From contig JAHJZO010000042.1 of assembly GCA_018826255.1 (NCBI GenBank), positions 1 through 33,972 on the forward strand: a DNA stretch of 33,972 nucleotides. Direction: 5' to 3'. Position numbers and translations under genes: made by a program. Origin of the DNA: Patescibacteria group bacterium (lineage in GTDB: Bacteria; Patescibacteriota; Minisyncoccia; UBA10092). Every line of letters starts with the position of its first letter. Within the stretch, counting starts at the first letter, position 1. The notes beneath the pieces are model-generated. The model ran no database searches and had not been told where the DNA came from. It was given only the letters and a program-made list of their open reading frames with translations. This document shows, one piece after another, positions 22,343 to 24,450 of the stretch.

Positions 22343-23380
22343 TCAAAATTGTTTTAAGAATCTAAAGTCGCTTGAATAAAAAAGCCGGATATCGCTTATG
22401 CCGTAATAAATCATGGATAAGCGGTCTAAGCCAACGCCGAAAGCGAATCCTTGCTGTTTGCCCGGAATATAGCCCGCCGCCTTAAAAACTTTGGGATGAA
22501 CCATGCCGGCTCCGGCCACTTCAAGCCATTTGGAACCGGTCTCCAGCTTAATATCCACTTCAATGCCCGGTTCAACAAAGGGAAAATATCCCGGCCTAAA
22601 TCTGATTTCAACCTTCTTTTTATTAAAAAATCTTTTAAAAAATTCTTCAAAAATGGCTTTCAGATTGGCCAGAGAAATATCTTCGCCGACCATAAGCCCT
22701 TCAATCTGATGGAATTGAATTTCATGGGAAGCGTCGGTGGCTTCATGGCGATAAACGCGGCCGGGGACGATAATCCGCAATGGAGGATTATTTTTTTCCA
22801 TATAACGCGCCTGCATCGGACTGGTGTGGGTTCTTAACAACAAATGTTGTTTCGGATTTTGGATTTCAGATTTCGGATTTTTAATCCAGAATGTGTCCTG
22901 CATCTCTCGCGCCGGATGGTCTTTGGAGATATTCAAAGCGTCAAAATTATAATATTCGCTTTCAATTTCCGAACCGAAAACAACCGAAAAACCCATTGAT
23001 TGGAAAATGTCCTCAATGCGGCGTTCGACTTTTGTCAAAGGATGAAGATGCCCCAGCGAAACACTCCTGCCGGGCATGGTAACATCAATTCCCTCTTTCT
23101 TAAGTTTTTCTTCAACAAATTTGTCTTTCAATTCTACCGATTTTTTGTTGATTAAATTTTCTAAGTCATTCCTTACGGAATTGAGACGGCGGCCGTTATG
23201 GGCTTTCAACTCTTCGGGAATGCCCGGGAGTTCTTTAATAAGGTCATTTAACTCGCCTTTGCGGCCGAGATATTTGACCCTTATCTCGTCAAGACGCACT
23301 AAATCAAGCGCTCGGCTCACCGCTTCTTTCACTTTTTTTTCCAAGATATTTATTTTTTCATCAAAATTTTCAACTGCCAT
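22343..23380 (-). CDS. pheS: Phenylalanine--tRNA ligase alpha subunit
   Basis: Listed ORF extends to 23425; start chosen at ATG 23380 (MAVENFDEKINIL...); LLRTHTSPMQARYM, GAGMVHPKVF, GVGLDRLSMIYYGISDIRLFYSSDFRFL. Confidence 0.95.
   Translation of the reverse strand: MAVENFDEKINILEKKVKEAVSRALDLVRLDEIRVKYLGRKGELNDLIKELPGIPEELKAHNGRRLNSVRNDLENLINKKSVELKDKFVEEKLKKEGIDVTMPGRSVSLGHLHPLTKVERRIEDIFQSMGFSVVFGSEIESEYYNFDALNISKDHPAREMQDTFWIKNPKSEIQNPKQHLLLRTHTSPMQARYMEKNNPPLRIIVPGRVYRHEATDASHEIQFHQIEGLMVGEDISLANLKAIFEEFFKRFFNKKKVEIRFRPGYFPFVEPGIEVDIKLETGSKWLEVAGAGMVHPKVFKAAGYIPGKQQGFAFGVGLDRLSMIYYGISDIRLFYSSDFRFLKQF
22851..22878. repeat. Tandem heptanucleotide repeat (TTYRGAT-type, 4 units) inside pheS
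   Basis: TTCGGAT TTTGGAT TTCAGAT TTCGGAT; encodes part of the KNPKSEIQNPKQ insert. Confidence 0.8.
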
Positions 23381-23556
23381 ATTAAGAGTCCGAAACAAAC
23401 CAATCCTATTACCAAACTTACGCATAAAACAACGGCGCCGAACACGCCGGCATTTTGGGGGTTAGTCAGTAAAATAACGCTAAAAAAAGACGCCCAAGCC
23501 AAGATATTCGCGAAAATTAGGGCTATTAAATGCGCTTTTCCACCATCCCAAAACAT
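23350..23556 (-). CDS. Small two-TM membrane protein overlapping the pheS start
   Basis: 68 aa; two hydrophobic helices; 31-nt overlap with pheS. Confidence 0.5.
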   Translation of the reverse strand: MFWDGGKAHLIALIFANILAWASFFSVILLTNPQNAGVFGAVVLCVSLVIGLVCFGLLIWQLKILMKK

Positions 23557-23637
23557 GCTTGAATTATATCAAATTTGCGCATCAAAAGCAATAAGTGTTG
23601 CGGGGGTTGGATTTGAACCAACGACCTCAAGGTTATG

Positions 23638-24300
23638 CTTACTCTCTACAGCTTCCGCTGCTCCGCCATAATGGCGAATTTGGAGTCTGGACTTTCTCTT
23701 CGCCCCCTATAAATATAGGTTGGGCGCCTGCCGTTAAGTCTCTACACCTTTCCATCCTTTTGATATCAGGAGGACTTGGCTCGGGATTGCCCATTTTGGG
23801 TTTCCCCGAATTTGACAGGTTATCACGCGCGAATTTCTTCGCGCGCAGCCCATTGCAAAATTAAATCCCAAGCGTCGCGATAATCTGCCGAGAGAGGTTT
23901 TCTTTGACGCTTCTTTTCCTCAACAAAATGGATAACACTGCCGTAGGCGATAAACGCCTCAATGGGTAAAACATAAAATATGTTTGGCCCATTTAGATAA
24001 ATTACGGCAAAGTCAAAATCGGATTTTTTGTATGGTTCGCGCAACATAAGGCGTCTATTTGTCTTAGTTCTGCGATTATCTACAACAAAATTTCCTGACT
24101 TTTTATCCAACCATGCTGATTTGATTTGGATTTTTACCAGCTTGCCCCTTACATCCAAAACTAAATCATATGGAAGCCGATCGCCTAAAGGTTTTAGTAC
24201 TGCCCAGCCGTGTTCTAAAGTCCTCATAATCACGGCCTGTTCAGCTATGTCTCCTTTAAGTTTTGTATCCATTATTCAGGATTTTAATTTTGCGGAATCG
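23638..24300 (-). ncRNA. Group I intron (tRNA-type, IC3-like) with internal homing-endonuclease ORF
   Basis: Conserved elements AAATTCGGGGAAACCC (P), GGCAATCCCGAGCCAAGTC (Q), GGTGTAGAGACTTAACGGC (R), GAGAAAGTCCAGAC (S), P9 hairpin CGCCATTATGGCG, terminal G. Confidence 0.92.
23823..24272 (-). CDS. PD-(D/E)xK group I intron homing endonuclease (I-Ssp6803I-like)
   Basis: 149 aa MDTKLKGDIAEQAVIMRTLEHGWAVLKPLGDRLPYDLVLDVRGKLVKIQIKSAW...; PYD...QIK catalytic pattern; lies entirely inside the intron. Confidence 0.9.
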   Translation of the reverse strand: MDTKLKGDIAEQAVIMRTLEHGWAVLKPLGDRLPYDLVLDVRGKLVKIQIKSAWLDKKSGNFVVDNRRTKTNRRLMLREPYKKSDFDFAVIYLNGPNIFYVLPIEAFIAYGSVIHFVEEKKRQRKPLSADYRDAWDLILQWAAREEIRA

Positions 24301-24334
24301 AGCCTTGCGAGCTACCAGGCTGCTCTACCCCGCA

Positions 24335-24369
24335 TTGAAATTATAGAATAATTCTGATAATATGGTCAA
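24335..24369. promoter_or_regulatory. Overlapping divergent promoters of tRNA-fMet (-) and tRNA-Met (+)
   Basis: Minus: TTGACC-18-TATAAT; plus: TTGAAA-17-TAATAT. Confidence 0.65.
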
Positions 24370-24375
24370 ATATTG

Positions 24376-24450
24376 GCCAGCGTAGCTCAGTGGTAGAGCA
24401 CCGCCCTCATAAAGCGGTCGTCACAGGTTCAATTCCTGTCGCTGGCACCA
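24376..24450 (+). tRNA. tRNA with CAT anticodon, most likely elongator tRNA-Met; CCA encoded
   Basis: GCCAGCGTAGCTCAGTGGTAGAGCACCGCCCTCATAAAGCGGTCGTCACAGGTTCAATTCCTGTCGCTGGCACCA; acceptor, D and T stems pair; anticodon stem has a C31.A39 mismatch. Confidence 0.9.

Follow-up and report, generated by a model that had tools for sequence, protein, structure and literature searches.

Does this organism, a bacterium with a very small genome, begin its proteins with a tRNA whose gene is interrupted, and if so, what kind of element interrupts it? The window (the whole stretch of DNA analysed, 33,972 nt) carries on its minus strand an initiator tRNA-Met(CAU) gene into whose anticodon loop, between U33 and C34, a group I intron of 663 nt is inserted. 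The host, a patescibacterium, belongs to the same genus as the 'Candidatus Azambacteria' genome G390 (locus L077), which bears out the host that an earlier note on this DNA had assumed conditionally. We hold with high confidence that the insert is a mobile group I intron, a close homologue of the tRNA-fMet intron of Synechocystis, residing in the only initiator gene found in this host; self-splicing would restore the tRNA, and the encoded nuclease would home into intronless genes. The anatomy of the element is given in Table 1; from homology, covariation and purifying selection we infer splicing, cleavage and homing.

The split gene was called by ARAGORN only when the program was run with its intron switch, which gave tRNA-Met(cat) with a 663-nt intron at 24300-23638; without the switch it was missed. 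With the intron removed the joined exons fold as a complete tRNA-Met(cat), and the proposal in the earlier note that a complete CAT tRNA with A11-U24 forms only after excision of this segment was correct to the nucleotide. So was its placing of the junction at U33|C34, with U as the last exon base and G as the last intron base, in the window as well as in relatives. Over nt 2-74 the spliced tRNA and its uninterrupted counterpart in the same-genus genome G387 share 100% identity. Initiator tRNAs usually possess a CAU anticodon, an A11-U24 pair, G-C pairs in the anticodon stem and a weak 1-72 pair. The anticodon and A11-U24 are both present here, near-identical intact genes occur in relatives, and the anticodon stem (AGG:CCU) retains two of the three G-C pairs of the initiator run; pair 1-72 is U-A, as against the textbook C x A. 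The putative promoter was the best site of the promoter scan and lies where a tRNA promoter would be expected, although such sites also arise by chance (3 found versus 2.3 expected). An assembly error is unlikely, as G390, a separate genome, has the same split gene and the same upstream neighbours.

Table 1. Features of the split initiator tRNA gene and its intron (window coordinates)
Feature	Position	Strand	Basis
Sigma-70-like promoter TTGACC-18-TATAAT, ending 5 bases before the tRNA	24340..24369	-	11/12 consensus matches
5' exon of initiator tRNA-Met(CAU), nt 1-33, last base U33	24301..24334	-	ARAGORN
Group I intron, 663 nt, last base G (omega G)	23638..24300	-	Rfam RF00028; alignment with 34 relatives
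P1 extension, 5' strand, GCAAAAUU, first bases of intron	24286..24293	-	Pairs with 23862-23855; covariation
PD-(D/E)XK homing endonuclease ORF, 149 aa, in P1 loop	23823..24272	-	PF11645; PDB 2OST
P1 extension, 3' strand, AAUUUUGC, also nuclease codons	23855..23862	-	Covariation; reading frame
P10 segment AUG, can pair with C34-A35-U36 (anticodon) of 3' exon	23851..23853	-	Comparison of 32 introns
Internal guide sequence GGCU, overlapping nuclease codons W-A	23847..23850	-	Pairs with 5' exon GGCU
P2 hairpin, GAAA loop	23825..23846	-	9 pairs, 9/9 with two-sided changes
Catalytic core P3-P8; P7 = 23740-23737 with 23693-23690	23690..23819	-	35-intron alignment
P9.0 and P9 hairpins, before 3' splice site	23641..23686	-	Intron alignment
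3' exon of initiator tRNA-Met, C34 to A73, CCA not encoded	23598..23637	-	ARAGORN; sequence

The Infernal search with Rfam Intron_gpI (RF00028), which had been named beforehand as the point on which the group I assignment turned, gave a strong match covering the whole model (64.8 bits, E-value=1.9e-14; cut-off 50 bits). A P2-P9 structure, its helices named by hand and P7 treated as a pseudoknot, was then scored on an alignment of the window intron with 34 relatives having an intron at the same site. Pairing was found in 97.1% of cells, with two-sided changes in 31 of 51 pairs; none of 500 shuffles did as well, and slid versions of the structure paired in 27-42%. Over the 35 introns P3, P4, P5 and P7 are paired in 100% of cells, P6 in 98% and P8 in 97%, and all core positions that are invariant among the relatives are intact in the window. 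The core that had been recognized by eye is thus present as covarying P3-P8 helices, with P7 and the P/Q/R/S strands. The U33.G pair in P1 and the terminal intron G are alike in the window intron and the relatives listed. With its core helices, P7, U.G splice site and omega G, the segment is a group I intron by structure.

P1 itself is short, consisting of four guide/exon pairs (U-1.G, C-G, G-C and G.U), two of them G.U; the same exon/guide combination recurs in 27 of the 32 introns with an internal ORF, and the P10 segment reads AUG in 23 and GUG in 5 of these. The P1 extension covaries across the same 32 introns despite being protein-coding as well: the pairing averages -13.7 kcal/mol within a sequence and -7.8 between sequences, a strength reached in 0 of 5000 permutations. 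Since the nuclease ORF overlaps this extension, its last codons serve at the same time as the P1 3' strand, the guide and P2, the stop codon (23825-23823) beginning inside the P2 hairpin. A pairing of the guide with the P7 3' strand, suggested by RNAalifold, was rejected, the 5' exon being absent from that alignment.

The resemblance of the ORF to I-Ssp6803I, likewise pointed out from the bare sequence, proved strong: it matches PF11645 (E-value=4.4e-48) over model positions 1-137 of 138 and I-Ssp6803I itself (PDB 2OST; E-value=7.9e-60) with 63% identity. D36, Q49 and K51, which we take to be the catalytic residues of the family, do not vary in the nuclease alignment, which contains I-Ssp6803I. 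Compared with the same-genus copy (L077) dN/dS is 0.11, which points to purifying selection on nuclease function. The ORF shows no clear ribosome-binding site, NCBIfam has no model matching these nucleases, and a plasmid search gave no match. The conservation of intron and nuclease indicates their past activity rather than present splicing or cutting by the window copy.

The element belongs to an already known type, the tRNA-fMet intron with an I-Ssp6803I-type nuclease. In Synechocystis PCC 6803 (U10482; Biniszkiewicz 1994; Bonocora and Shub 2001; PDB 2OST) host gene and nuclease family are the same, and the size class is shared, with a 655-nt intron and a 150 aa nuclease (PMC1995217) against 663 nt and 149 aa here. 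A second cyanobacterial relative, from Snowella (L111), has the same layout and a 655-nt intron. The window element differs from that of Synechocystis in host phylum and in the anticodon stem (AGG:CCU versus GGG:CCC), so that the presumed cut site would be slightly different. Group I introns in CPR tRNAs have been mentioned (PMC8172020) and are, to judge by its title, the subject of a preprint by Nakagawa et al. 2025 (cited in PMC12641178) dealing with the same phylum and kind of host gene. Those of CPR rRNA genes, often with LAGLIDADG nucleases (PMC11270868), share phylum and intron class with the window element and differ in host gene and nuclease family.

By analogy, a pre-tRNA would be transcribed from the gene's own promoter, the guide would form P1 with the last bases of the 5' exon and P10 with the anticodon, and the core would bind guanosine, two transesterifications then joining U33 to C34. 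A transcript left unspliced would yield no functional initiator tRNA. The nuclease made from the P1 loop would cut intronless tRNA-fMet genes, and their repair would copy the intron in.

The assembly (537 kb, 96.8% complete) contains 40 uninterrupted tRNA genes. No uninterrupted initiator tRNA gene was found in it, and a search with the spliced tRNA returned the two exon halves only; together with the intact, undecayed core, this agrees with what the earlier note had expected. The sole other CAU tRNA is an elongator adjoining the split gene (24376-24450), and AUA is read by a UAU tRNA. A second initiator gene could sit in the unassembled 3% or so. Because the only initiator gene found is split, translation initiation would depend on self-splicing: in this ultra-reduced genome a mobile ribozyme has been kept in what is apparently the only initiator tRNA gene, and protein synthesis would hinge on the RNA. 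Genes of this kind go unnoticed in standard tRNA annotation, so that where a small genome seems to lack an initiator tRNA, an intron may often be the reason.

The earlier note had viewed the element as a type described in a few cyanobacteria turning up in one odd lineage, a picture that did not survive a wider survey. A scan for the nuclease, one genome per species, found 142 relatives, of which 80 were kept. In 35 of these the ORF lies inside an initiator-tRNA intron of about 640-702 nt, and this form occupies the same site in some 16 phyla, although many of the records are metagenome bins and individual phylum assignments may be wrong. Among them are Patescibacteria groups, Cyanobacteria, Chloroflexota, Nitrospirota, Acidobacteriota, Bacteroidota, Planctomycetota and Chlamydiota. 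A further 39 of the 80 have a short intron (240-340 nt) without a nuclease and a nuclease gene downstream of the 3' exon, mostly 93-173 bp from it; these are chiefly Nostocales with some Bacteroidota, isolates included (L085, L094, L125 and 36 others). A signature of intron 3' end plus 3' exon revealed initiator introns in 12 of 384 Patescibacteria genomes (reversed control pattern, 0), a recurrence well above what chance would give. Four of the 12 enclose a PF11645 nuclease and six are only about 217-276 nt long; most Nostocales introns measure 244 nt. In one patescibacterial intron (L163) an antisense ORF takes the place of the PF11645 nuclease. At L093, L145 and L153 the intron is kept and the nuclease reading frame is broken, as a homing cycle with alternating gain and decay would predict. 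At L171 (2638-2923, genome G251), near a split initiator gene, a tRNA-Asp gene is apparently split by a 211-nt insert. The pattern GGCTCATAACC was dropped as a marker of intact initiator genes in other hosts, being too short for large genomes.

Three other explanations were considered. That the window copy is a pseudogene or decayed intron, the cell using another initiator tRNA, draws on the incompleteness of the assembly, which might conceal a second copy; against this stand the intact invariant core positions, an open ORF under purifying selection, the near-consensus promoter, and the fact that the only other CAU tRNA is the neighbouring elongator. We regard such decay as highly implausible; the split gene with its intron is real and well formed, and it is very probably functional. 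Splicing might instead depend on a protein, perhaps the intron's own nuclease acting as a maturase. In its favour are the weakness of P1 and the existence, in other families, of intron nucleases that also serve as maturases; yet the short patescibacterial and Nostocales introns at the same site leave no room for an ORF, and Biniszkiewicz et al. 1994 (cited in PMC3610870) describe the Synechocystis relative in their title as self-splicing. Dependence on a protein is accordingly given little credence beside self-splicing.

The remaining explanation, that the intron is ancestral, vertically inherited and lost many times, its nuclease being kept and homing playing no role today, is unlikely in our estimation but has more to recommend it. 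Several patescibacterial lineages have the intron, and the closest relative, G390 (gatA 89-90% identical to the window), shares it. A single clade of all Patescibacteria nucleases was not rejected (AU test, p = 0.43). Within the genus, on the other hand, the site is polymorphic, as is relevant to homing: filled in G390, it is empty in G387, G388 and G389, where the initiator tRNA is uninterrupted. G388, with gatA 83% identical, is thus intron-free, yet the intron is present in the more distant L078 (gatA 73%). The L078 nuclease is 83% identical to that of the window and a neighbouring gene only 58%, a contrast that fits transfer of the intron between lineages without proving it. Outside the Patescibacteria the nearest relative comes from a deltaproteobacterial MAG, whose split gene is 72% identical at the DNA level, and the low dN/dS suggests that nuclease function itself has been selected. 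In the nuclease tree (86 rows) the window, L077 and L078 are joined with 99% SH-aLRT; beside them the deltaproteobacterial MAG and an Uhrbacteria row are weakly placed. A single clade of the cyanobacterial nucleases was not rejected either. The horizontal transfer envisaged in the earlier note gains support from the patchy distribution; the tree is compatible with a single patescibacterial clade, and the protein behind it is too short to give the direction or number of transfers. A mobile intron that moves by homing is the reading that we retain.

The host genome has two further group I introns, in tRNA-Phe and 23S rRNA. The former (L032, on contig C29) is 214 nt long, lacks an ORF and lies at U33|G34, the equivalent site; a 48-nt part of its core has 77% identity to the initiator intron. 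Upstream of this split tRNA-Phe gene, and 20 bp from it, ends an ORF of 231 aa whose start is HTH-like and which, compared by eye, resembles the antisense ORF of the G159 initiator intron; ORF and split gene together account for L032 765-1460 and 1481-1767. The 23S rRNA intron is at L033, 1501-1715, on contig C28. A separate anomaly concerns pheS (window 22343-23425), which is 72-73% identical to its counterparts in G387 and G388 and only about 32% to that in G390, though gatA is 90% identical to that of G390; the gene was probably replaced in one lineage.

Relatives of the nuclease also occur free of any intron. On four IMG/VR phage contigs (L157-L160, about 1501-2000) one runs into the 5' end of an intact tRNA-Met gene of initiator type and stops there, the stop codon TAG of L157 coinciding with tRNA nt 8-10. 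The anticodon stems of L157 and L159 depart from the usual GGG:CCC, which perhaps makes these tRNA genes resistant. In Patescibacteria, shorter PF11645 ORFs (L050, L052-L058) adjoin or overlap the 5' end of intact tRNA genes, those for Ser(UGA) in four cases, Tyr in two, and Thr or Asp; this suggests a family of nucleases that home into tRNA genes. Free-standing phage nucleases, e.g. F-CphI and SegB, are known to engage in collaborative or intronless homing, which resembles these side arrangements in relatives, whereas the window nuclease lies inside its intron. Tentatively, and with the odds somewhat against it, intron and nuclease may be separable partners with one shared target, the initiator anticodon loop; free, downstream and intron-borne nucleases would then represent natural stages on the way to a mobile intron, and phages or tRNA-gene homing could carry the nuclease between phyla. 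With the nuclease variously enclosed by the intron, next to it or apart from it, and the site the same in many phyla, the wider family offers material for testing how mobile introns are assembled and travel. The spread over so many phyla, the placing of the nuclease gene downstream and the forms on phage contigs are possibly new, no description having been found in the literature examined, which is not proof of novelty.

As of a 2014 review, phage introns had been seen in protein genes only (PMC3984707). Two phage contigs have group I introns in tRNA genes: L176 (8920-9193) carries one of 199 nt in tRNA-fMet, and L177 (5401-7261) has them in its tRNA-Met, Arg and Leu genes, that of tRNA-Met being 696 nt long and enclosing an antisense ORF with a weak HNH match.
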